Positions 33,565-56,800 of a stretch of 64,000 nucleotides of DNA are shown here, piece after piece. A program made the translations under genes and the position numbers. The notes under the pieces are model-generated. The model searched no databases. It was not told the origin of the DNA and worked only from the letters and a program-made list of their open reading frames with translations. The first letter of the stretch is position 1. Every line of letters starts with the position of its first letter. Location: NCBI RefSeq assembly GCF_029760915.1, contig NZ_CP121685.1, positions 248,001-312,000 on the forward strand, in the 5' to 3' direction. Source of the DNA: Olleya sp. YS. Its GTDB lineage: Bacteria; Bacteroidota; Bacteroidia; Flavobacteriales; Flavobacteriaceae.

Positions 33565-33580
33565 TTGGCACTTAATTTGA
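33565..33580 (+). promoter_or_regulatory. sigma-54-like promoter before the hydrolase gene
   Basis: TTGGCAC at 33565-33571 and TTGA at 33577-33580 give GG-N10-GA, close to the sigma-54 pattern TGGCAC-N5-TTGC. The predicted start is near 33592, 12 bases before the ATG. Two further boxes of this kind lie 1.1 kb away on the other strand (34679-34695 and 34871-34888). Confidence 0.6.
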
Positions 33581-33603: not shown

Positions 33604-34530
33604 ATGAAAACCTATCTTTTAGTTCTACTCACTTTGTGTTCTGTTTCTGCAATTGCTCAAGAACAGGACTATTCATCTCAAGACTTAGTCATTAATAAAC
33701 ATATAGAAGGTACTTTATTGCTTCCCAATAATAAAGATAAACCCAATCTAGCTATTATAATTGCTGGATCTGGACCGACAGATAGAAACGGAAATCAGAA
33801 TTTTTTAAAAAGTAATACCCTAAAAAAACTAGCTATTGGTTTAACCAATAATAATATTGCAACTTTTAGATACGATAAGCGCATTGTAAAACAAATACGA
33901 GAAAACAACGTAGACAAAGACATTATGTTTGACGACTTTGTTACTGATGCTACATCTGTCATAGACTATTTTAAACTGCAAGGCAAGTATAATAAAATAT
34001 TTATCGTTGGGCATAGTCAAGGTAGCCTGGTTGGCATGCTTGCAGCAAAAGATAGAGCTGATGGTTTTATATCCTTAGCTGGAGCTGGCCAAACTATAGA
34101 TAATGTTATTTTAGAACAAGTCGAAAAAACTGCTCCTCAATTTACTGAAGATACCAAACGTGTGTTTAAAATTTTAAAAGAAGGAAAAACAACTACAGAT
34201 TACCCTATAGCTTTATCATCAATTTTTAACTTAGACGTTCAAAAATTTATAATGAATTGGATGACCTATAATCCAGTAGAAATAATGAAAACTTTAGATA
34301 TGCCTTCATTAATCATTAACGGAACCAAGGACTTACAAGTTAGCGAAGCTGAAGCTACGCTTTTAAAAGACGCATCACCTAAAGCAGAATTAAAAATTAT
34401 TGAAAATATGAATCATGTGCTAGTGACTATTCTAGGTGATGATCTAGAAAACTCAAAATCTTATAACGAGTCACAAAGACCTTTAGCATCAGAGCTTATT
34501 GATAGCATAGTTTTGTTTATCAACAAATAA
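33604..34530 (+). CDS. exported alpha/beta hydrolase
   Basis: A 308-residue serine hydrolase with a signal peptide (first 18 residues, ending AIAQEQ). The oxyanion region is IIAGSGPTDRNGNQNFL near residue 53, the nucleophile elbow GHSQGSLVG near 138, the acid in NGTKDLQVSEAE near 240 and the His in MNHVL near 273. This matches the group of exported or periplasmic esterase/peptidase-like hydrolases (S9-like, 'alpha/beta hydrolase family'). The substrate is unknown. A sigma-54-like promoter lies just upstream, so its expression may depend on RpoN and an enhancer-binding protein. Confidence 0.85.
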   Translation: MKTYLLVLLTLCSVSAIAQEQDYSSQDLVINKHIEGTLLLPNNKDKPNLAIIIAGSGPTDRNGNQNFLKSNTLKKLAIGLTNNNIATFRYDKRIVKQIRENNVDKDIMFDDFVTDATSVIDYFKLQGKYNKIFIVGHSQGSLVGMLAAKDRADGFISLAGAGQTIDNVILEQVEKTAPQFTEDTKRVFKILKEGKTTTDYPIALSSIFNLDVQKFIMNWMTYNPVEIMKTLDMPSLIINGTKDLQVSEAEATLLKDASPKAELKIIENMNHVLVTILGDDLENSKSYNESQRPLASELIDSIVLFINK

Positions 34531-34552
34531 TCAAACAACCCTATATAAAACA

Positions 34553-34667
34553 GAAAAAGCATCCTAAAAGGATGCTTTTTCATACTAACCAACCAAAAAT
34601 ATGATAATTACCACTCGTTTCTATTAGGTAACCACACCTAGAAAGAAAGTCATCATAAGTAATTACA
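34553..34667 (-). ncRNA. candidate sigma-54-driven small RNA, copy 1
   Basis: Predicted RNA of about 115 nt from near 34667 down to the terminator at 34581-34553 (GAAAAAGCATCC, TAAAA loop, GGATGCTTTTTC). It aligns end to end with copy 2 (34747-34860). Conserved: UAUGAUGACUU near the 5' end, a hairpin capped by AGGUGUGGUUACCU, then UUUGGUUGGUUAGUAUG just before the terminator. The outer hairpin arms UUUCUA and UAGAAA pair here, while copy 2 has UUUUA and UAAAA, so pairing is kept although bases differ. No coding potential of note. No known family is recognised. Confidence 0.7.
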
Positions 34668-34678
34668 CTTTCTATATT

Positions 34679-34695
34679 ACAATTGTCGTGCCAAA
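34679..34695 (-). promoter_or_regulatory. sigma-54-like promoter of sRNA copy 1
   Basis: On the minus strand TTTGGCACGACAATTGTAA contains TGGCACG-N4-TTGT. The -24 GG and -12 G are ten bases apart, and only the final C of the consensus TTGC differs. It is the best -24/-12 match I see in the window. Confidence 0.7.
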
Positions 34696-34746
34696 TCACT
34701 GATAATTACACGTTTAAATGTTAAAAAAACACTAAAATTATTAATA

Positions 34747-34860
34747 GAAAAAGCACCCAAAAAAAGGGTGCTTTTTCATACTAACCAACCAAATGTAATC
34801 ATTACTCGTTTTAGTTAAGGTAACCACACCTTGTATTAAAAGTCATCATAATTGATTACA
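34747..34860 (-). ncRNA. candidate sigma-54-driven small RNA, copy 2
   Basis: Predicted RNA of about 114 nt ending in GAAAAAGCACCC, an A7 loop (T7 in the plus-read hairpin) and GGGTGCTTTTTC (34777-34747). The same order of elements as copy 1: UUAUGAUGACUUUU, a hairpin with inner stem AAGGU/ACCUU and outer stem UUUUA/UAAAA around GUGGUU, a possible 5'-3' pairing of GUAAUC with GAUUAC, and UUUGGUUGGUUAGUAUG. The 3' terminator is strong in both directions. The two copies are about 190 bp apart and share promoter type, so a tandem duplication is clear. Confidence 0.7.
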
Positions 34861-34870
34861 CACTATACAA

Positions 34871-34888
34871 ATCAATTCTTGTGCCAAA
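34871..34888 (-). promoter_or_regulatory. sigma-54-like promoter of sRNA copy 2
   Basis: On the minus strand TTTGGCACAAGAATTGAT has TGGCAC-N5-TTGA, with GG and GA ten bases apart. The predicted start is near 34860. Confidence 0.65.
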
Positions 34889-34952
34889 CTTTATTTTTAA
34901 ACCTTTTGTTAACCATTTTATTTGATTATTTTGCGATAAATAAACTAACATT

Positions 34953-36260
34953 ATGAGTGAACCACTATTTACTAACGACACCGTTATTTTTGGCGTATTG
35001 ATGCTAGCTTTAGGTTTGATTTTTTATACCGAATCATTAAAAGGTGGCTTTTGGGAAAAATTTTATAAGATTGTTCCAGGTCTATTTATGGCGTATATGC
35101 TACCAGCAGTATTAACAACCATTGGATTAATTGCTCCAGAATGGGAAACTACTACTGATACTGGAGAAGTTATTAAACATAAAACCAATTTGTATTATGT
35201 GGCTAGTCGTTACTTACTACCTGCTGCTTTAGTATTAATGACCTTAAGTATTGACCTAAAAGCTGTTTTTAATTTAGGATGGCGTGCTTTAGTTATGTTT
35301 TTTACAGGAACAATTGGGATTGTCATTGGTGGTCCAATTGCCATATTATTAATTTCTATTTTCTCTCCAGAAACTGTTGGTGGAGCTGGTCCAGATGCTG
35401 TTTGGAGAGGCTTGTCCACACTAGCAGGAAGTTGGATTGGTGGTGGAGCCAATCAAACTGCTATGCTAGAAATTTTTGAATATAATCAAGCAGAATACGG
35501 TAAAATGGTTTTTGTCGATATAGTCGTAGCTAACATTTGGATGGCACTTTTATTAATAGGAATTGGAAAACGTACCAAGATTAATAAATGGCTAAAAGCA
35601 GATACGTCTTCTATAGAAGAACTAAAAGAAAAAGTCTCTACTTTTTCTGAAAGTGTAAAACGCAATCCGTCACTTACAGATTTAATGATTTTAGGAGCTA
35701 TTGGTTTTGGAACAGTAAGTATTGCACATTTAGGTGCTAATTTTTTAGCTCCATTTTTTGGCGAAGTGGTCTCTAATATAGAATCACCAACTTGGAAAAA
35801 CACACTTACTTTTTTAGATAGTACTTTTTTCTGGATGATTAGTATTGCTACTGTAATTGCAATAGTGCTATCCTTTACAAAAGCACGAAACTACGAAGGT
35901 GCTGGAGCTAGTAAATTTGGAAGCGTTTTTATCTATATTTTAGTTGCAACCATCGGAATGAAAATAAACATTGCCTCAATTTTTGACAATTTAGGTTTAA
36001 TAGCTGTTGGATTAGTCTGGATGACAATTCATGCTATACTTTTAATAGGTGTCGCTAAATTAATTAAAGCACCTTATTTCTTTTTAGCTGTTGGAAGTCA
36101 AGCCAATGTTGGTGGTGCAGCATCTGCTCCAATTGTAGCGTCTGCATTTCATCCTTCTCTAGCAACGGTTGGTGTCCTTTTAGCAGTTGTTGGATATGCT
36201 GTAGGGACTTTAGCCGCAATTGGTTGTACTATTTTAATGCAATTAGCTGCAGGAGGTTAG
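34953..36260 (+). CDS. DUF819 family membrane protein
   Basis: A 435-residue integral membrane protein with about 11 hydrophobic segments. DUF819 proteins resemble transporters; their substrate is not established. Typical pieces are TNDTVIFGVLMLALGLIFYT at the start, the inner repeat GSWIGGGANQTAMLEIF near 155 and its counterpart AVGSQANVGGAASAPIVASA near 380. The two Gly/Asn-rich re-entrant-like segments point to an inverted-repeat fold. It starts 63 bp from the predicted sRNA promoter on the other strand and is followed by a lipoprotein gene. Confidence 0.85.
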   Translation: MSEPLFTNDTVIFGVLMLALGLIFYTESLKGGFWEKFYKIVPGLFMAYMLPAVLTTIGLIAPEWETTTDTGEVIKHKTNLYYVASRYLLPAALVLMTLSIDLKAVFNLGWRALVMFFTGTIGIVIGGPIAILLISIFSPETVGGAGPDAVWRGLSTLAGSWIGGGANQTAMLEIFEYNQAEYGKMVFVDIVVANIWMALLLIGIGKRTKINKWLKADTSSIEELKEKVSTFSESVKRNPSLTDLMILGAIGFGTVSIAHLGANFLAPFFGEVVSNIESPTWKNTLTFLDSTFFWMISIATVIAIVLSFTKARNYEGAGASKFGSVFIYILVATIGMKINIASIFDNLGLIAVGLVWMTIHAILLIGVAKLIKAPYFFLAVGSQANVGGAASAPIVASAFHPSLATVGVLLAVVGYAVGTLAAIGCTILMQLAAGG

Positions 36261-41820: not shown

Positions 41821-44800
41821 TTAACGTTGAATATATAAATATCCAGCTCTTGATTTAGTTTCTCCATCTTTATTGTATTCAACAATATAGAAGTAGGTAC
41901 CTACTGGTAATTGTTTTTCAACTTCAACGTTTACTCTTCCATTAGATTCACCTGTAAAGAAGTTACCATTTTGAGCATAACCTTTAGTTTCAAACACTAT
42001 TACTCCCCATCTGTTATAAATCTTAACAGTGTTTTCAGGATATAATTCTATGTTTCTTATTACAAACACATCATTATCACCATCTCCGTTAGGCGTTACT
42101 GCATTGAAAATTTCTAAATCATCTTCAGAAGGTGAAGCATTATTTACATCTAAATAATCAGGTAAACCATCTCCATCACTATCTACTGCATCACCACCAA
42201 ATCCAATTCCATCCATATTTGGATCTGGATACTCATCTTCTGTTAAAATTCCGTCGTTATCATCGTCAGTATCTAAATAATCTGGAATACCATCTCCATC
42301 TGTATCATCATTTGTTGGATCATTATCTCCTGTAGGATTAACGTCTCCATCTGAAACATCAACATCTCCATAATCTTCGTTAATAGTATCTACTCCGTCA
42401 TTATCATCATCAGGATCTAACCAGTTTGGCATTCCATCTCCATCTGTATCGCCAAACGGGAATTCGACTCCATTTGGTACATTATCAAAATCACAATCTC
42501 CTGCTAACCATTCTGCCGATTGAGGAACAGTAGTACTAGATGTAATAAAGTCACATGGATCTAATGGATCTGTATTATCATCTAATTCAGTTCCGTTAAT
42601 TACTCCATCACCATCGCAATCTAATGCTTCCCATGCTGGGGAAACTGAATCATCGTCTTGGCTTGCAGTTAAGAAATCACATGGATCTAATGGATCTGTT
42701 CCATCAGTAATTTCTTGTCCATTAGTTACTCCATCACCATCACAGTCTGCTGCTAAGTATAAAACATCTGGTGTCAACGTAACATCTGATATAATGAAAT
42801 CACACGGATCGTTCGGATCTGTTGGTGCCTCTCCATCTGGTGGTGTTAATTCATCGCCATTTGTTACTCCGTCACCATCACAGTCTGCTGCTAAGAACGC
42901 TGCATCTGGTGTTAACGTTATATCTGATGTAATGAAATCACACGGATCGTTCGGATCTGTTGGTGCCTCTCCATCTGGTGGTGTTAATTCATCGCCATTT
43001 GTTACTCCGTCACCATCACAGTCTGCTGCTAAGAACGCTGCATCTGGTGTTAACGTTATATCTGATGTAATGAAATCACACGGATCGTTTGGATCTGTTG
43101 GTGCCTCTCCATCTGGTGGTGTTAATTCATCGCCATTTGTTACTCCGTCACCATCACAGTCTGCTGCTAAGAACGCTGCATCTGGTGTTAACGTTATATC
43201 TGATGTAATGAAATCACACGGATCGTTTGGATCTGTTGGTGCCTCTCCATCTGGTGGTGTTAATTCATCGCCATTTGTTACTCCGTCACCATCACAGTCT
43301 GCTGCTAAGAACGCTGCATCTGGTGTTAACGTTATATCTGATGTAATGAAATCACACGGATCGTTTGGATCTGTTGGTGCCTCTCCATCTGGTGGTGTTA
43401 ATTCATCGCCATTTGTTACTCCGTCACCATCACAGTCTGCTGCTAAGAACGCTGCATCTGGTGTTAACGTTATATCTGATGTAATGAAATCACACGGATC
43501 GTTTGGATCTGTTGGTGCCTCTCCATCTGGTGGTGTTAATTCATCACCATTTGTTACTCCGTCACCATCACAGTCTGCTGCTAAGAACGCTGCATCTGGT
43601 GTTAACGTTATATCTGATGTAATGAAATCACACGGATCGTTTGGATCTGTTGGTGCCTCTCCATCTGGTGGTGTTAATTCATCACCATTTGTTACTCCGT
43701 CACCATCACAGTCTGCTGCTAAGAACGCTGCATCTGGTGTTAACGTTATATCTGATGTAATGAAATCACACGGATCTTTTGGATCTGTTGGTGCCTCTCC
43801 ATCTGGTGGTGTTAATTCATCACCATTTGTTACTCCGTCACCATCACAGTCTGCTGCTAAGAACGCTGCATCTGGTGTTAACGTTATATCTGATGTAATG
43901 AAATCACACGGATCGTTTGGATCTGTTGGTGTCTCTCCATCTGGTGGTGTTAATTCATCACCATTTGTTACTCCGTCACCATCACAGTCTGCTGCTAAGA
44001 ACGCTGCATCTGGTGTTAACGTTATATCTGATGTAATGAAATCACACGGATCGTTTGGATCTGTTGGTGCCTCTCCATCTGGTGGTGTTAATTCATCACC
44101 ATTTGTTACTCCGTCACCATCACAGTCTGCTGCTAAGAACGCTGCATCTGGTGTTAACGTTATATCTGATGTAATGAAATCACACGGATCGTTTGGATCT
44201 GTTGGTGCCTCTCCATCTGGTGGTGTTAATTCATCACCATTTGTTACTCCGTCACCATCACAGTCTGCTGCTAAGAACGCTGCATCTGGTGTTAACGTTA
44301 TATCTGATGTAATGAAATCACACGGATCGTTTGGATCTGTTGGTGCCTCTCCATCTGGTGGTGTTAATTCATCACCATTTGTTACTCCGTCACCATCACA
44401 GTCTGCTGCTAAGAACGCTGCATCTGGTGTTAACGTTATATCTGATGTAATGAAATCACACGGATCGTTTGGATCTGTTGGTGCCTCTCCATCTGGTGGT
44501 GTTAATTCATCACCATTTGTTACTCCGTCACCATCACAGTCTGCTGCTAAGAACGCTGCATCTGGTGTTAACGTTATATCTGATGTAATGAAATCACACG
44601 GATCGTTTGGATCTGTTGGTGCCTCTCCATCTGGTGGTGTTAATTCATCACCATTTGTTACTCCGTCACCATCACAGTCTGCTGCTAAGAACGCTGCATC
44701 TGGTGTTAACGTTATATCTGATGTAATGAAATCACACGGATCGTTTGGATCTGTTGGTGTCTCTCCATCTGGTGGTGTTAATTCATCACCATTTGTTACT

Positions 44801-47800
44801 CCGTCACCATCACAGTCTGCTGCTAAGAACGCTGCATCTGGTGTTAACGTTATATCTGATGTAATGAAATCACACGGATCGTTTGGATCTGTTGGTGCCT
44901 CTCCATCTGGTGGTGTTAATTCATCACCATTTGTTACTCCGTCACCATCACAGTCTGCTGCTAAGAACGCTGCATCTGGTGTTAACGTTATATCTGATGT
45001 AATGAAATCACACGGATCGTTTGGATCTGTTGGTGCCTCTCCATCTGGTGGTGTTAATTCATCACCATTTGTTACTCCGTCACCATCACAGTCTGCTGCT
45101 AAGAACGCTGCATCTGGTGTTAACGTTATATCTGATGTAATGAAATCACACGGATCGTTTGGATCTGTTGGTGCCTCTCCATCTGGTGGTGTTAATTCAT
45201 CACCATTTGTTACTCCGTCACCATCACAGTCTGCTGCTAAGAACGCTGCATCTGGTGTTAACGTTATATCTGATGTAATGAAATCACACGGATCGTTTGG
45301 ATCTGTTGGTGTCTCTCCATCTGGTGGTGTTAATTCATCACCATTTGTTACTCCGTCACCATCACAGTCTGCTGCTAAGAACGCTGCATCTGGTGTTAAC
45401 GTTATATCTGATGTAATGAAATCACACGGATCGTTTGGATCTGTTGGTGCCTCTCCATCTGGTGGTGTTAATTCATCACCATTTGTTACTCCGTCACCAT
45501 CACAGTCTGCTGCTAAATCAGAAAGACAGTCTTGTATCGTTACCGTTCCGCTTGGGTCTGTGTTTACTGTATTACCACTGGTTACCGTTCCGTCTACTGT
45601 GAAATCTTCATCGCCTTCTGCGATATTATCATCTGTAATTGGAATACTAACATCTACACTTGTACTTCCTGCTGGAATCGTTACTGTAGTGGTTGTCGTT
45701 GTATAATCTGATGTACCTGCGGTTCCACTTGTCGTTACAATATCTATTACCGTATCTACTGAACTTGGCGTGTTGATGGTTACTGGTACTGTTGCGGTAC
45801 CATCACCTTCGTCTACTGTCACGTCACCTATGGTTACCGTTACTGGATCGTTATCTGTAATCGTTACCGTTCCGCTTGGATCCGTATTGTTAGTGTTACC
45901 ACTGGTTACCGTTCCATCTACTGTAAAGTCCTCTGTTGGCTCGCCAATGTTATCATCCGTTATTGGAATACTAACATCTACTGATGTGCTGCCTGCTGGA
46001 ATCGTTACTGTAGTGGTGGTCGTTGTATAATCTGATGTACCTGCAGTTCCACTTGTCGTGACAATATCTATTACTGTATCTACTGAACTTGGTGTGCTTA
46101 AGGTTACTGGTACTGTTGCGGTACCATCGCCTTCGTCTACTGTCACATCGCCTATGGTTACTGTTACTGAATCGTTATCTGTAATCGTTACCGTTCCGCT
46201 TGGGTCTGTGTTTACTGTATTACCACTGGTTACCGTTCCGTCTACTGTGAAATCTTCATCGCCTTCTGCGATATTATCATCTGTAATTGGAATACTAACA
46301 TCTACACTTGTACTTCCTGCTGGAATCGTTACTGTAGTGGTTGTCGTGGTATAATCTGATGTGCCTGCGGTTCCACTTGTTGTTACAATATCTATTACCG
46401 TATCTACTGAACTTGGCGTGTCGATGGTTACTGGTACTGTTGCTGTACCATCGCCTTCGTCTACTGTCACATCACCTATGGTTACCGTTACTGGATCATT
46501 ATCCGTAATGGTTACCGTTCCGCTTGGATCCGTATTGTTAGTGTTACCACTGGTTACCGTTCCATCTACTGTAAAGTCCTCTGTTGGCTCGCCAATGTTA
46601 TCATCCGTTATTGGAATACTAACATCTACTGATGTGCTGCCTGCTGGAATCGTTACTGTAGTGGTTGTCGTTGTATAATCTGATGTACCTGCGGTTCCTG
46701 AGGTAGTTACAATATCTATGACTGTATCTACTGAACTTGGTGTGCTTAAGGTTACTGGTACTGTTGCGGTACCATCGCCTTCGTCTACTGTCACATCGCC
46801 TATGGTTACTGTTACTGAATCGTTATCTGTAATCGTTACCGTTCCGCTTGGGTCTGTGTTTACTGTATTACCACTGGTTACCGTTCCGTCTACTGTGAAA
46901 TCTTCATCGCCTTCTGCGATATTATCATCTGTAATTGGAATACTAACATCTACACTTGTACTTCCTGCTGGAATCGTTACTGTAGTGGTTGTCGTGGTAT
47001 AATCTGATGTGCCTGCGGTTCCTGAGGTAGTTACAATATCTATTACCGTATCTACTGAACTTGGCGTGTCGATGGTTACTGGTACTGTTGCTGTACCATC
47101 GCCTTCGTCTACTGTCACATCACCTATGGTTACCGTTACTGGATCATTATCCGTAATGGTTACCGTTCCGCTTGGATCCGTATTGTTAGTGTTACCACTG
47201 GTTACCGTTCCATCTACTGTAAAGTCCTCTGTTGGCTCGCCAATGTTATCATCCGTTATTGGAATACTAACATCTACTGATGTGCTGCCTGCTGGAATCG
47301 TTACTGTAGTGGTTGTCGTTGTATAATCTGATGTACCTGCGGTTCCTGAGGTAGTTACAATATCTATGACTGTATCTACTGAACTTGGTGTGCTTAAGGT
47401 TACTGGTACTGTTGCGGTACCATCGCCTTCGTCTACTGTCACATCGCCTATGGTTACTGTTACTGAATCGTTATCTGTAATCGTTACCGTTCCGCTTGGG
47501 TCTGTGTTTACTGTATTACCACTGGTTACCGTTCCGTCTACTGTGAAATCTTCTGGTCCTTCTGCAATAGCATCATCTGTAATTGGAATACTAACATCTA
47601 CACTTGTACTTCCTGCTGGAATCGTTACTGTAGTGGTTGTCGTGGTATAATCTGATGTGCCTGCGGTTCCACTTGTTGTTACAATATCTATTACCGTATC
47701 TACTGAACTTGGCGTGTCGATGGTTACTGGTACTGTTGCTGTACCATCGCCTTCGTCTACTGTCACATCACCTATGGTTACCGTTACTGGATCATTATCC

Positions 47801-50800
47801 GTAATGGTTACCGTTCCGCTTGGATCCGTATTGTTAGTGTTACCACTGGTTACCGTTCCATCTACTGTAAAGTCCTCTGTTGGCTCGCCAATGTTATCAT
47901 CCGTTATTGGAATACTAACATCTACTGATGTGCTGCCTGCTGGAATCGTTACTGTAGTGGTTGTCGTTGTATAATCTGATGTACCTGCGGTTCCACTTGT
48001 CGTGACAATATCTATTACTGTATCTACTGAACTTGGTGTGCTTAAGGTTACTGGTACTGTTGCGGTACCATCGCCTTCGTCTACTGTCACATCGCCTATG
48101 GTTACTGTTACTGAATCGTTATCTGTAATCGTTACCGTTCCGCTTGGGTCTGTGTTTACTGTATTACCACTGGTTACCGTTCCGTCTACTGTGAAATCTT
48201 CTGGTCCTTCTGCAATAGCATCATCTGTAATTGGAATACTAACATCTACACTTGTACTTCCTGCTGGAATGGTTACCGTAGTGGTTGTCGTGGTATAATC
48301 TGATGTGCCTGCGGTTCCTGAGGTAGTTACAATATCTATTACCGTATCTACTGAACTTGGCGTGTCGATGGTTACTGGTACTGTTGCTGTACCATCGCCT
48401 TCGTCTACTGTCACATCACCTATGGTTACCGTTACTGGATCATTATCCGTAATGGTTACCGTTCCGCTTGGATCCGTATTGTTAGTGTTACCACTGGTTA
48501 CCGTTCCATCTACTGTAAAGTCCTCTGTTGGCTCGCCAATGTTATCATCCGTTATTGGAATACTAACATCTACTGATGTGCTGCCTGCTGGAATCGTTAC
48601 TGTAGTGGTTGTCGTTGTATAATCTGATGTACCTGCGGTTCCTGAGGTAGTTACAATATCTATGACTGTATCTACTGAACTTGGTGTGCTTAAGGTTACT
48701 GGTACTGTTGCGGTACCATCGCCTTCGTCTACTGTCACATCGCCTATGGTTACTGTTACTGAATCGTTATCTGTAATCGTTACCGTTCCGCTTGGGTCTG
48801 TGTTTACTGTATTACCACTGGTTACCGTTCCGTCTACTGTGAAATCTTCATCGCCTTCTGCGATATTATCATCTGTAATTGGAATACTAACATCTACACT
48901 TGTACTTCCTGCTGGAATCGTTACTGTAGTGGTTGTCGTGGTATAATCTGATGTGCCTGCGGTTCCACTTGTTGTTACAATATCTATTACCGTATCTACT
49001 GAACTTGGCGTGTCGATGGTTACTGGTACTGTTGCTGTACCATCGCCTTCGTCTACTGTCACATCACCTATGGTTACCGTTACTGGATCATTATCCGTAA
49101 TGGTTACCGTTCCGCTTGGATCCGTATTGTTAGTGTTACCACTGGTTACCGTTCCATCTACTGTAAAGTCCTCTGTTGGCTCGCCAATGTTATCATCCGT
49201 TATTGGAATACTAACATCTACTGATGTGCTGCCTGCTGGAATCGTTACTGTAGTGGTTGTCGTTGTATAATCTGATGTACCTGCGGTTCCTGAGGTAGTT
49301 ACAATATCTATGACTGTATCTACTGAACTTGGTGTGCTTAAGGTTACTGGTACTGTTGCGGTACCATCGCCTTCGTCTACTGTCACATCGCCTATGGTTA
49401 CTGTTACTGAATCGTTATCTGTAATCGTTACCGTTCCGCTTGGGTCTGTGTTTACTGTATTACCACTGGTTACCGTTCCGTCTACTGTGAAATCTTCATC
49501 GCCTTCTGCGATATTATCATCTGTAATTGGAATACTAACATCTACACTTGTACTTCCTGCTGGAATGGTTACCGTAGTGGTTGTCGTGGTATAATCTGAT
49601 GTGCCTGCGGTTCCTGAGGTAGTTACAATATCTATTACCGTATCTACTGAACTTGGCGTGTCGATGGTTACTGGTACTGTTGCGGTACCATCGCCTTCGT
49701 CTACTGTCACATCACCTATGGTTACCGTTACTGGATCATTATCCGTAATGGTTACCGTTCCGCTTGGATCCGTATTGTTAGTGTTACCACTGGTTACCGT
49801 TCCATCTACTGTAAAGTCCTCTGTTGGCTCGCCAATGTTATCATCCGTTATTGGAATACTAACATCTACTGATGTGCTGCCTGCTGGAATCGTTACTGTA
49901 GTGGTCGTCGTGGTATAATCTGATGTACCTGCGGTTCCTGAGGTAGTTACAATATCTATTACTGTATCTACTGAACTTGGTGTGCTTAAGGTTACTGGTA
50001 CTGTTGCGGTACCATCGCCTTCGTCTACTGTCACATCGCCTATGGTTACTGTTACTGAATCGTTATCTGTAATCGTTACCGTTCCGCTTGGGTCTGTGTT
50101 TACTGTATTACCACTGGTTACCGTTCCGTCTACTGTGAAATCTTCTGGTCCTTCTGCAATAGCATCATCTGTAATTGGAATACTAACATCTACACTTGTA
50201 CTTCCTGCTGGAATCGTTACTGTAGTGGTTGTCGTGGTATAATCTGATGTGCCTGCGGTTCCACTTGTTGTTACAATATCTATTACCGTATCTACTGAAC
50301 TTGGCGTGTCGATGGTTACTGGTACTGTTGCTGTACCATCGCCTTCGTCTACTGTCACATCACCTATGGTTACCGTTACTGGATCATTATCCGTAATGGT
50401 TACCGTTCCGCTTGGATCCGTATTGTTAGTGTTACCACTGGTTACGGTTCCATCTACTGTAAAGTCCTCTGTTGGCTCGCCAATGTTATCATCCGTTATT
50501 GGAATACTAACATCTACTGATGTGCTGCCTGCTGGAATCGTTACTGTAGTGGTTGTCGTTGTATAATCTGATGTACCTGCGGTTCCTGAGGTAGTTACAA
50601 TATCTATGACTGTATCTACTGAACTTGGTGTGCTTAAGGTTACTGGTACTGTTGCGGTACCATCGCCTTCGTCTACTGTCACATCGCCTATGGTTACTGT
50701 TACTGAATCGTTATCTGTAATCGTTACCGTTCCGCTTGGGTCTGTGTTTACTGTATTACCACTGGTTACCGTTCCGTCTACTGTGAAATCTTCATCGCCT

Positions 50801-53800
50801 TCTGCGATATTATCATCTGTAATTGGAATACTAACATCTACACTTGTACTTCCTGCTGGAATCGTTACTGTAGTGGTTGTCGTGGTATAATCTGATGTGC
50901 CTGCGGTTCCTGAGGTAGTTACAATATCTATTACCGTATCTACTGAACTTGGCGTGTCGATGGTTACTGGTACTGTTGCTGTACCATCGCCTTCGTCTAC
51001 TGTCACATCACCTATGGTTACCGTTACTGGATCATTATCCGTAATGGTTACCGTTCCGCTTGGATCCGTATTGTTAGTGTTACCACTGGTTACCGTTCCA
51101 TCTACTGTAAAGTCCTCTGTTGGCTCGCCAATGTTATCATCCGTTATTGGAATACTAACATCTACTGATGTGCTGCCTGCTGGAATCGTTACTGTAGTGG
51201 TTGTCGTTGTATAATCTGATGTACCTGCGGTTCCTGAGGTAGTTACAATATCTATTACTGTATCTACTGAACTTGGTGTGCTTAAGGTTACTGGTACTGT
51301 TGCGGTACCATCGCCTTCGTCTACTGTCACATCGCCTATGGTTACTGTTACTGAATCGTTATCTGTAATCGTTACCGTTCCGCTTGGGTCTGTGTTTACT
51401 GTATTACCACTGGTTACCGTTCCGTCTACTGTGAAATCTTCTGGTCCTTCTGCAATAGCATCATCTGTAATTGGAATACTAACATCTACACTTGTACTTC
51501 CTGCTGGAATCGTTACTGTAGTGGTTGTCGTGGTATAATCTGATGTGCCTGCGGTTCCACTTGTTGTTACAATATCTATTACCGTATCTACTGAACTTGG
51601 CGTGTCGATGGTTACTGGTACTGTTGCTGTACCATCGCCTTCGTCTACTGTCACATCACCTATGGTTACCGTTACTGGATCATTATCCGTAATGGTTACC
51701 GTTCCGCTTGGATCCGTATTGTTAGTGTTACCACTGGTTACGGTTCCATCTACTGTAAAGTCCTCTGTTGGCTCGCCAATGTTATCATCCGTTATTGGAA
51801 TACTAACATCTACTGATGTGCTGCCTGCTGGAATCGTTACTGTAGTGGTTGTCGTTGTATAATCTGATGTACCTGCGGTTCCTGAGGTAGTTACAATATC
51901 TATGACTGTATCTACTGAACTTGGTGTGCTTAAGGTTACTGGTACTGTTGCGGTACCATCGCCTTCGTCTACTGTCACATCGCCTATGGTTACTGTTACT
52001 GAATCGTTATCTGTAATCGTTACCGTTCCGCTTGGGTCTGTGTTTACTGTATTACCACTGGTTACCGTTCCGTCTACTGTGAAATCTTCATCGCCTTCTG
52101 CGATATTATCATCTGTAATTGGAATACTAACATCTACACTTGTACTTCCTGCTGGAATCGTTACTGTAGTGGTTGTCGTGGTATAATCTGATGTGCCTGC
52201 GGTTCCTGAGGTAGTTACAATATCTATTACCGTATCTACTGAACTTGGCGTGTCGATGGTTACTGGTACTGTTGCTGTACCATCGCCTTCGTCTACTGTC
52301 ACATCACCTATGGTTACCGTTACTGGATCATTATCCGTAATGGTTACCGTTCCGCTTGGATCCGTATTGTTAGTGTTACCACTGGTTACCGTTCCATCTA
52401 CTGTAAAGTCCTCTGTTGGCTCGCCAATGTTATCATCCGTTATTGGAATACTAACATCTACTGATGTGCTGCCTGCTGGAATCGTTACTGTAGTGGTTGT
52501 CGTTGTATAATCTGATGTACCTGCGGTTCCTGAGGTAGTTACAATATCTATGACTGTATCTACTGAACTTGGTGTGCTTAAGGTTACTGGTACTGTTGCG
52601 GTACCATCGCCTTCGTCTACTGTCACATCGCCTATGGTTACTGTTACTGAATCGTTATCTGTAATCGTTACCGTTCCGCTTGGGTCTGTGTTTACTGTAT
52701 TACCACTGGTTACCGTTCCGTCTACTGTGAAATCTTCTGGTCCTTCTGCAATAGCATCATCTGTAATTGGAATACTAACATCTACACTTGTACTTCCTGC
52801 TGGAATGGTTACCGTAGTGGTTGTCGTGGTATAATCTGATGTGCCTGCGGTTCCTGAGGTAGTTACAATATCTATTACCGTATCTACTGAACTTGGCGTG
52901 TCGATGGTTACTGGTACTGTTGCGGTACCATCGCCTTCGTCTACTGTCACATCACCTATGGTTACCGTTACTGGATCATTATCCGTAATGGTTACCGTTC
53001 CGCTTGGATCCGTATTGTTAGTGTTACCACTGGTTACCGTTCCATCTACTGTAAAGTCCTCTGTTGGCTCGCCAATGTTATCATCCGTTATTGGAATACT
53101 AACATCTACTGATGTGCTGCCTGCTGGAATCGTTACTGTAGTGGTCGTCGTGGTATAATCTGATGTACCTGCGGTTCCTGAGGTAGTTACAATATCTATT
53201 ACTGTATCTACTGAACTTGGTGTGCTTAAGGTTACTGGTACTGTTGCGGTACCATCGCCTTCGTCTACTGTCACATCGCCTATGGTTACTGTTACTGAAT
53301 CGTTATCTGTAATCGTTACCGTTCCGCTTGGGTCTGTGTTTACTGTATTACCACTGGTTACCGTTCCGTCTACTGTGAAATCTTCTGGTCCTTCTGCAAT
53401 AGCATCATCTGTAATTGGAATACTAACATCTACACTTGTACTTCCTGCTGGAATCGTTACTGTAGTGGTTGTCGTGGTATAATCTGATGTGCCTGCGGTT
53501 CCACTTGTTGTTACAATATCTATTACCGTATCTACTGAACTTGGCGTGTCGATGGTTACTGGTACTGTTGCTGTACCATCGCCTTCGTCTACTGTCACAT
53601 CACCTATGGTTACCGTTACTGGATCATTATCCGTAATGGTTACCGTTCCGCTTGGATCCGTATTGTTAGTGTTACCACTGGTTACGGTTCCATCTACTGT
53701 AAAGTCCTCTGTTGGCTCGCCAATGTTATCATCCGTTATTGGAATACTAACATCTACTGATGTGCTGCCTGCTGGAATCGTTACTGTAGTGGTTGTCGTT

Positions 53801-56800
53801 GTATAATCTGATGTACCTGCGGTTCCTGAGGTAGTTACAATATCTATGACTGTATCTACTGAACTTGGTGTGCTTAAGGTTACTGGTACTGTTGCGGTAC
53901 CATCGCCTTCGTCTACTGTCACATCGCCTATGGTTACTGTTACTGAATCGTTATCTGTAATCGTTACCGTTCCGCTTGGGTCTGTGTTTACTGTATTACC
54001 ACTGGTTACCGTTCCGTCTACTGTGAAATCTTCATCGCCTTCTGCGATATTATCATCTGTAATTGGAATACTAACATCTACACTTGTACTTCCTGCTGGA
54101 ATCGTTACTGTAGTGGTTGTCGTGGTATAATCTGATGTGCCTGCGGTTCCTGAGGTAGTTACAATATCTATTACCGTATCTACTGAACTTGGCGTGTCGA
54201 TGGTTACTGGTACTGTTGCTGTACCATCGCCTTCGTCTACTGTCACATCACCTATGGTTACCGTTACTGGATCATTATCCGTAATGGTTACCGTTCCGCT
54301 TGGATCCGTATTGTTAGTGTTACCACTGGTTACCGTTCCATCTACTGTAAAGTCCTCTGTTGGCTCGCCAATGTTATCATCCGTTATTGGAATACTAACA
54401 TCTACTGATGTGCTGCCTGCTGGAATCGTTACTGTAGTGGTTGTCGTTGTATAATCTGATGTACCTGCGGTTCCTGAGGTAGTTACAATATCTATGACTG
54501 TATCTACTGAACTTGGTGTGCTTAAGGTTACTGGTACTGTTGCGGTACCATCGCCTTCGTCTACTGTCACATCGCCTATGGTTACTGTTACTGAATCGTT
54601 ATCTGTAATCGTTACCGTTCCGCTTGGGTCTGTGTTTACTGTATTACCACTGGTTACCGTTCCGTCTACTGTGAAATCTTCTGGTCCTTCTGCAATAGCA
54701 TCATCTGTAATTGGAATACTAACATCTACACTTGTACTTCCTGCTGGAATCGTTACTGTAGTGGTTGTCGTGGTATAATCTGATGTGCCTGCGGTTCCAC
54801 TTGTTGTTACAATATCTATTACCGTATCTACTGAACTTGGCGTGTCGATGGTTACTGGTACTGTTGCTGTACCATCGCCTTCGTCTACTGTCACATCACC
54901 TATGGTTACCGTTACTGGATCATTATCCGTAATGGTTACCGTTCCGCTTGGATCCGTATTGTTAGTGTTACCACTGGTTACGGTTCCATCTACTGTAAAG
55001 TCCTCTGTTGGCTCGCCAATGTTATCATCCGTTATTGGAATACTAACATCTACTGATGTGCTGCCTGCTGGAATCGTTACTGTAGTGGTTGTCGTTGTAT
55101 AATCTGATGTACCTGCGGTTCCTGAGGTAGTTACAATATCTATGACTGTATCTACTGAACTTGGTGTGCTTAAGGTTACTGGTACTGTTGCGGTACCATC
55201 GCCTTCGTCTACTGTCACATCGCCTATGGTTACTGTTACTGAATCGTTATCTGTAATCGTTACCGTTCCGCTTGGGTCTGTGTTTACTGTATTACCACTG
55301 GTTACCGTTCCGTCTACTGTGAAATCTTCATCGCCTTCTGCGATATTATCATCTGTAATTGGAATACTAACATCTACACTTGTACTTCCTGCTGGAATCG
55401 TTACTGTAGTGGTTGTCGTGGTATAATCTGATGTGCCTGCGGTTCCTGAGGTAGTTACAATATCTATTACCGTATCTACTGAACTTGGCGTGTCGATGGT
55501 TACTGGTACTGTTGCTGTACCATCGCCTTCGTCTACTGTCACATCACCTATGGTTACCGTTACTGGATCATTATCCGTAATGGTTACCGTTCCGCTTGGA
55601 TCCGTATTGTTAGTGTTACCACTGGTTACCGTTCCATCTACTGTAAAGTCCTCTGTTGGCTCGCCAATGTTATCATCCGTTATTGGAATACTAACATCTA
55701 CTGATGTGCTGCCTGCTGGAATCGTTACTGTAGTGGTTGTCGTTGTATAATCTGATGTACCTGCGGTTCCTGAGGTAGTTACAATATCTATGACTGTATC
55801 TACTGAACTTGGTGTGCTTAAGGTTACTGGTACTGTTGCGGTACCATCGCCTTCGTCTACTGTCACATCGCCTATGGTTACTGTTACTGAATCGTTATCT
55901 GTAATCGTTACCGTTCCGCTTGGGTCTGTGTTTACTGTATTACCACTGGTTACCGTTCCGTCTACTGTGAAATCTTCTGGTCCTTCTGCAATAGCATCAT
56001 CTGTAATTGGAATACTAACATCTACACTTGTACTTCCTGCTGGAATCGTTACTGTAGTGGTTGTCGTGGTATAATCTGATGTGCCTGCGGTTCCACTTGT
56101 TGTTACAATATCTATTACCGTATCTACTGAACTTGGCGTGTCGATGGTTACTGGTACTGTTGCTGTACCATCGCCTTCGTCTACTGTCACATCACCTATG
56201 GTTACCGTTACTGGATCATTATCCGTAATGGTTACCGTTCCGCTTGGATCCGTATTGTTAGTGTTACCACTGGTTACCGTTCCATCTACTGTAAAGTCCT
56301 CTGTTGGCTCGCCAATGTTATCATCCGTTATTGGAATACTAACATCTACTGATGTGCTGCCTGCTGGAATCGTTACTGTAGTGGTTGTCGTTGTATAATC
56401 TGATGTACCTGCGGTTCCACTTGTCGTGACAATATCTATTACTGTATCTACTGCGCTGACCGCATCAATAGTTACTGGAACGGTTGCGGTACCATCGCCT
56501 TCGTCTACTGTGACGTCACCTATGGTAATATTAACTAAACAAGAGTTTATAGTATCACTCGTAACAGCTGCAGTTGTTGCTTGCTGGTAAGAATTCATAC
56601 TAGTATCCTCTGGAACACCATTAGCATCAACTTGTCCTTCGTCTGCATCTGCAAGATTATCACTTGTTGTCAAATCTGATTGAACAAAAGTTCCTGCTGC
56701 TTCAACAGCATCTGGACAACCATCATTATCACTGTCTGTGTCTAAATAGTCTGGGGTATTATCACCATCAGAATCTGTACTTTGGCATGCAGAAAGAATA

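Follow-up and report, generated by a model that had tools for sequence, protein, structure and literature searches.

The window, that is the whole stretch of 64,000 nucleotides from Olleya sp. YS that was analysed, contains two tandem units on its minus strand, which lie between a convergent gene of an alpha/beta hydrolase and a divergent gene of a DUF819 membrane protein. Each unit harbors a -24/-12 box of the sigma-54 type, a covarying fold, the loop GUGGUU, the tail GGUUGGUUAGU and a terminator, and the predicted sRNA is 113-114 nt long. The features are as follows:

33565-33579, plus strand: sigma-54 box TTGGCACTTAATTTG, about 25 nt before the hydrolase gene (sequence match)
33604-34530, plus strand: convergent alpha/beta hydrolase (Pfam), whose cluster is a common neighbour of the sigma-54 form (100 of 192 loci)
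34554-34580, minus strand: copy B, intrinsic terminator (sequence and fold)
34584-34594, minus strand: copy B, tail GGUUGGUUAGU (last three bases predicted to be paired in this copy)
34627-34638, minus strand: copy B, hairpin GGUGUGGUUACC with loop GUGGUU (alignment and covariation)
34554-34667, minus strand: sRNA copy B, predicted transcript (+1 inferred from the box)
34680-34694, minus strand: copy B, sigma-54 -24/-12 promoter TTGGCACGACAATTG (sequence match)
34748-34776, minus strand: copy A, intrinsic terminator (sequence and fold)
34780-34790, minus strand: copy A, exposed tail GGUUGGUUAGU (unpaired probability 0.69-0.93; near-invariant in the alignment)
34819-34830, minus strand: copy A, hairpin GGUGUGGUUACC with loop GUGGUU (alignment and covariation)
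34748-34860, minus strand: sRNA copy A, predicted transcript (+1 inferred 12 nt past the -12 position)
34873-34887, minus strand: copy A, sigma-54 -24/-12 promoter TTGGCACAAGAATTG (sequence match)
34953-36260, plus strand: divergent DUF819 membrane protein upstream of copy A (Pfam domain search)

The original prediction had placed a sigma-54-type box before each of the units and an intrinsic terminator at their ends, and both kinds of element are present. Three sigma-54 boxes were found in the window compared to 0.13 expected, and none of 100 shuffles reached three. The third box precedes the hydrolase gene; it was observed in 5 of the 11 Olleya loci scanned (the window and four others), and the notion that it is a wider trait was rejected, as only 2 of 75 cases outside Olleya had it, one of them at a misplaced start. 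The hairpin GGTGTGGTTACC, which was claimed to be shared by the two units, is indeed identical in copies A and B. The tail GGTTGGTTAGT is the same in both copies as well: it occurs twice in the window (0.03 expected), and no further copy of it was found there. The fold energies (z = -4.0 for copy A and -3.4 for copy B) are better than those of all 200 dinucleotide shuffles in both cases, which is in line with the claim of structured RNAs. At the gathering threshold of Rfam the only match in the window was a tRNA elsewhere, and a scan of positions 34500-34950 at E <=10 resulted in 23 matches that were all under the gathering scores (best E 0.074). The units thus match no Rfam family. Qrr, to which no relation in sequence had been seen, is absent from both sets of matches; its model is presumably a part of the Rfam library that was scanned.

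The locus was found at the same place in all nine other Olleya genomes searched, with 2-4 tandem copies in each, and every one of the 26 copies in 10 genomes has a box by the loose pattern. Among the first 20 loci outside the genus the tail was present in 17, and all of these 17 have the box. A model built on the 3' module alone (R1), of which the promoter box is not a part, was searched against 395 genomes of the family. For the sample, 90 of the best loci were taken, which cover 57 genus codes; it represents strong members rather than all members, and five of these loci (L043, L052, L055, L057 and L061) had also served to train R1. There were 101 matches at E <=1e-6 in these 90 loci of 57 genera, and the strict box TTGGCAY-N5-TTG lies within 160 nt upstream of 95 of them and the loose box of 98, compared to 20 and 333 of 20000 random stretches, respectively. 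Winogradskyella, Algibacter, Tamlana, Psychroserpens, Lacinutrix, Kordia, Formosa, Bizionia, Mesonia, Salinimicrobium and others are among the matches listed (80 loci listed out of 118 stretches). Weak R1 matches (E <=0.01), seen in 382 of the 395 genomes, were excluded from the counts because many of them are plain terminators, as judged by a sample from the window's own genome. Beyond the family, R1 (E <=1e-6) matched 7 of 196 genomes of the order and a second model, R2 (E <=1e-4), matched 3 of 149 genomes of the class, all of them within Flavobacteriaceae; three of the seven order-level matches (genus code g147) are the tail at the 3' end of an mRNA and not the RNA. The filters were strict, and therefore distant forms may be missed. 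Additionally, rows were dropped as duplicate or terminator matches (L002, L003), as terminator only (L028, L031, L032), as chance matches in other phyla (L165, L191) and as 3'-end tails or ambiguous cases (L397, L403, L405-L407, L409-L411). Judged by its sequence, the RNA belongs to a conserved structured family that is widespread in Flavobacteriaceae and has no Rfam match.

We describe a member as a loop-and-tail RNA when it has a hairpin with a GURRUU loop, a UUGGUURGUUA strand and a terminator, in this order. The window copies and the 36-row alignment fit this description, and in a part of the sigma-54 set the loop is altered or missing: among 187 distinct sigma-54-boxed segments 141 have the GURRUUA loop, 21 have only the GUUAC core and 25 have neither, that is about a quarter of the sigma-54 units are without the loop. 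Some middle copies of arrays (L067, 1664-1715; L082, 2891-2942, minus strand) kept the RNA and lost the sigma-54 box.

The stems of the two units had been described as compensatory, and the data on the relatives agree: 39 related copies pair in 93.2% of the cells at helix 1, 91.6% at helix 2 and 98.7% at the hairpin. The alignments were made per class; a whole-unit alignment had put the 3' arm wrongly. The paired cells amount to 94.2% in the Olleya-like class (39 sequences), 91.9% in the GAGUGG class (54 sequences) and 93.9% in the class of the sigma-A form introduced below (25 sequences), with covariation scores of 0.357, 0.161 and 0.214 vs 0.171, 0.109 and 0.134 in shuffled alignments; none of the 500 shuffles was as high in any class. 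These shuffles ignore relatedness, and slid controls, which keep it, were clearly lower. By weaker measures, changes on both sides of a pair were matched by 10 of 500 shuffles in the Olleya-like class and further pair types by 7 of 500 in the GAGUGG class, in which one pair of the outer stem is broken in 24 of 54 sequences. RNAalifold on mixed alignments recovered only the terminator.

The original prediction could not see that a homologous RNA resides at another locus and with a sigma-A-type box in other genera. It was found in the Flavobacterium-like genus g147, which by inference is probably Flavobacterium (249 genomes searched, 28 loci examined), and in 20 further genera, that makes 21 genus codes. 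The finds outside g147 come from 20 of 40 genomes that were picked for having no strong R1 match; two of the 40 (G011 and G124) held the sigma-54 form instead. A housekeeping box TAnnTTTG precedes this sigma-A form in all 28 loci of g147 and in 17 of the 20 others, and by one common rule it is present in 44 of 47 sigma-A loci compared to 1 of 90 sigma-54-form units. In 46 of 48 loci the RNA is followed by a DUF3108 gene in the same orientation, an HPPD-like gene stands ahead of the RNA in 43 rows of its cluster (in Pfam the HPPD model itself is just below the cut-off for this gene), and tryptophan dioxygenase comes after DUF3108 in 42.

The original interpretation as tandem structured small RNAs is supported as far as sequence can show, with expression inferred only. 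The boxes, the fold, the covariation, the conservation, the similarity of the two forms and their different loci are observed in silico; transcription, sigma-54 dependence, relocation and function are inferred. The evidence leans, by a modest measure, to the reading that these are tandem genes for one non-coding sRNA, which would be controlled by sigma-54 with an enhancer-binding protein (EBP), would be derived from an older RNA with a housekeeping promoter and would act by base pairing. According to it, sigma-54 RNA polymerase and the EBP would transcribe both tandem genes, so that the RNA would be made upon a stress signal, in a dose set by the copy number. Two segments of the RNA, the GUGGUU loop and, next to the terminator, the tail UUGGUUGGUUA, would be exposed without pairing, and these would pair with C/A-rich segments of several mRNAs and in this way alter their translation or stability. 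Pairing is proposed because loop and tail are what is both conserved and unpaired in the two window copies. Action in trans by base pairing is most likely, though it is inferred and no target was found: complements of the tail (ACYAACCAAM) occur 96 times in the window's own genome and the reversed control 101 times, thus without enrichment. In 20 stretches around chosen sites only the clpB-like one turned out to be the tail beside a terminator, and the rest lie mostly in open frames.

The full tail with the 3' module does occur elsewhere in the same genome, directly behind a ClpB-like gene (E 9e-7, no box seen upstream), and the next matches of the module there (E 1e-6 and weaker) are terminators with a partial tail or none. 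Two genera have the tail TTGGTTGGTTAGTT with a terminator immediately after a ClpB-like gene (G000:C1:2955889-2955953, which is L306, and L405), with no box seen upstream in either; ClpB was named by reading and not by Pfam. It is possible that the tail behind this gene marks an RNA derived from the 3' UTR. Since the tail occurs without the hairpin at the clpB-like 3' end and the 3' ends of other mRNAs, and also in RNAs with a sigma-54 box that map to a third locus next to uvrA, it may be a 3'-end element rather than a seed. A general terminator motif was considered and rejected: only 1 of 11 occurrences of TGGTTRGTTA elsewhere in a 1.02 Mb pool has a terminator next to it, compared to 0 of 66 for shuffled motifs. 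The motif is thus not general in this pool, yet some 3' ends in other genomes carry it as well.

One could argue that the GGUU units of loop and tail are instead the sites of an RNA-binding protein, which the RNA would sequester or which would protect its 3' end. Loop and tail both contain the GGUU core, whereas the stems vary, the tail is common to clpB-like 3' ends in two genera and to other RNAs, the complements of the tail are not enriched, and tandem copies would increase the dose of such a decoy. Decoy RNAs of the CsrB/RsmZ type repeat a short motif in loop and strand, as the window RNA does, but the motif of the latter is GGUU and not GGA. However, each RNA offers only one stem-loop site and one strand, and no partner protein is known. 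Thus we regard the decoy as possible and rather unlikely.

The favoured reading of a pairing sRNA also implies that the sigma-54 form is derived. In a tree of DUF3108 (68 rows) the genomes with the sigma-54 form fall into a single clade of 21 rows (SH-aLRT 99) that lies among those with the sigma-A form, with G011 standing alone, and the form changes only 2 times compared to a shuffled mean of 18.8. This is a quick tree with a midpoint root, and the direction from sigma-A to sigma-54 rests on that root. The copy of G011 adjoins a lipA-like gene and combines a sigma-54 box with a hairpin of the sigma-A type (L404); being separate and having such a hairpin, it makes a second switch possible. In 22 genomes with the sigma-54 form no tail was found in the gap between HPPD and DUF3108. 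Since a homologous RNA with a sigma-A box exists at another locus, the tandem sigma-54 layout looks derived, and what the window holds is probably an older RNA that has been moved, given a new promoter and amplified, with the relocation inferred.

The two forms could also be separate RNAs that share the terminator-side tail, or old paralogues of which one was kept per clade. Their loci and promoters differ, a quarter of the sigma-54 units has no loop, and in G016 and G138 the sigma-A form exists alongside a sigma-54-boxed RNA that has the tail without the hairpin (L442, L444), so that neither promoter type strictly excludes the other and the tail is common to several RNAs. Such tail-only sigma-54 RNAs stand directly before the same secreted-protein-like gene in L442, L444, L148/L159 of Salinimicrobium, L193 and L195 of Mesonia, and a uvrA-like gene is located upstream in L442; G032, for its part, has three dispersed sigma-A copies (L399, L440, L441). 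On the other hand, a model of the sigma-A form that excludes tail and terminator (R3) still finds the sigma-54 form: of its 65 matches at E <=5 across 460 kb of sigma-54 loci, 53 coincide with the RNA (49 loci) and 12 lie elsewhere or on the opposite strand, though single scores were modest (best E 0.00086). Moreover, GAGUGGUUAC is found verbatim in both forms, the order and spacing of the elements agree between them, and L404 unites the sigma-54 box with the sigma-A-type hairpin. We therefore hold this alternative to be distinctly unlikely, although old paralogues with clade-wise loss are still possible. Derivation from the older RNA could be carried further. It could be that the old RNA moved in the Olleya-Winogradskyella-Algibacter branch and exchanged its housekeeping promoter for a sigma-54 one, that it kept loop and tail and was multiplied in tandem in some genera, that its regulon would have turned from constitutive to signal-gated, and that a GGUU-specific partner, as yet undescribed, would recognise loop and tail as well as the clpB 3' UTR and the sigma-54 RNAs that have the tail only; as a whole this remains speculative and is unlikely to hold.

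It is very unlikely that the RNA is a cis element, namely a leader or attenuator of the downstream gene. The position of the sigma-A form 5' of DUF3108 would suit this role, but the gene that follows the units points towards them in the window, as it does in at least 137 of 192 sigma-54 loci, and DUF3108 has a sigma-54 box of its own (TTGG[CA]AY-N5-TTG), which follows the RNA and its terminator in 34 of 48 sigma-A loci (background 60 of 20000) and precedes DUF3108 in 22 of 22 genomes with the sigma-54 form (the set of L416-L437, L326 and L388). The units are read as stand-alone genes because the next downstream gene runs the opposite way. A short mRNA for a small protein can hardly be maintained: ATGATG and short frames (MMTFNTRCGYLN and MMTFFLGVVT, each up to a stop) do exist in the copies, against the claim of no open frame, but these frames read the conserved hairpin differently in the two copies and hence share no peptide, the gaps do not come in threes and the stem changes are compensatory.

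The 192 sigma-54 loci are partly redundant, and counts over them are not independent because some genomes enter twice. Their downstream neighbours are hydrolase (100, mostly convergent), AlkB-like (89) and dipeptidase-like (117) genes, and upstream there are divergent SPFH-like (73) and DUF4369-like (83) genes and one unnamed cluster (83). The names of these clusters rest on similarity and reading, and the domains of the window's own genes on Pfam. The RNA is single in 170 of these loci, double in 14, triple in 3 and quadruple in 5.

The Qrr sRNAs of Vibrio, which are activated by LuxO and pair in an Hfq-dependent manner, are encoded in several near-identical copies under sigma-54 promoters and have stem-loops with an intrinsic terminator. 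The window units resemble them in the -24/-12 promoters, the multiple copies, the stem-loops and the terminator and differ in that they have no Qrr match in Rfam, stand in tandem at one locus and belong to a different phylum. In the same phylum, FopS/GibS of Bacteroides are multi-copy paralogous sRNAs with a terminator, and FopS has 14 copies, sigma-ABfr promoters, a seed near the 5' end and a deposited Rfam model, as far as the available part of that report goes (PMC11697453). The window RNA is likewise a paralogous multi-copy sRNA of Bacteroidota with a terminator; in contrast to FopS as described in that part, it has sigma-54 boxes, a tandem layout, a conserved loop and 3' tail, and no Rfam match (PMC11697453). 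TAnnTTTG of the sigma-ABfr type lies 12-45 nt before the loop in only 1 of 90 sigma-54-form units, which were selected by their sigma-54 box, and the deposited FopS/GibS model, provided that release 15 contains it, gave no gathering match.

According to the accessible portion of a study on Flavobacterium psychrophilum, chaperone, gliding and envelope genes of this species have sigma-54 promoters, as does a single RNA, the putative regulatory RNA Rfp36 (SM4 promoter), and the deletion of Rfp18, a genus-conserved structured sRNA, lowers two metalloprotease mRNAs (PMC9723704). Rfp36 resembles the window units in its sigma-54 promoter and Rfp18 resembles the window RNA as a conserved structured sRNA. 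Both may be relatives of it, and the sigma-A form may correspond to Rfp18 or a different Rfp, but no sequence comparison stands behind either notion. The genes with sigma-54 promoters in that excerpt make a stress role plausible, though it is a borrowed one (PMC9723704). The open literature on flavobacterial sRNA, sigma-54/RpoN and Rfam, supplements excluded, yielded no description of the window RNA family, which agrees with the statement that no family of this layout was known; the passages of PMC5069720 that were consulted likewise contain nothing on it. Candidate sRNAs of F. columnare without an Rfam match have been reported in what is accessible of PMC5395568, thus expression of the sigma-A form may already be tabulated.

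Few sRNAs of Flavobacteriaceae are characterised, and a covarying RNA with 57 sigma-54 and 21 sigma-A genus codes gives a handle on RNA regulation in this large marine family. The exchange of the sigma factor, with the old gap recognisable but empty, would amount to nature's own experiment on the input change of an sRNA. A possibly rewired RNA regulator becomes testable in this way, as relatives keep the ordinary promoter and the Olleya branch has the sigma-54 one, sometimes in multiple copies.

A gene with the sigma-54 DNA-binding domain was found in 394 of the 395 family genomes searched, including the window's own, and the sigma-54 form is therefore not explained by a gain of the factor. 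Two clear EBPs are encoded in the window's genome. The first is a REC-AAA protein of 387 aa (L033, 1081-2244) with no HTH match in Pfam, which may work without a binding site; the second is an AAA-Fis protein that adjoins an LptE-like gene (LptE by reading). The search for an upstream activating site revealed only motifs tied to neighbour genes, for example TGATATCA beside SPFH-like genes. The palindrome-rich motif TGATATTAAAATGATATCATAAAGATAT precedes divergent SPFH-like genes (e.g. L013, L025 and L109). Elsewhere in the window, positions 41821-58425 of the minus strand encode a highly repetitive surface-type protein of 5534 aa, with PorP-like and OmpA-like genes (named by reading) after it.
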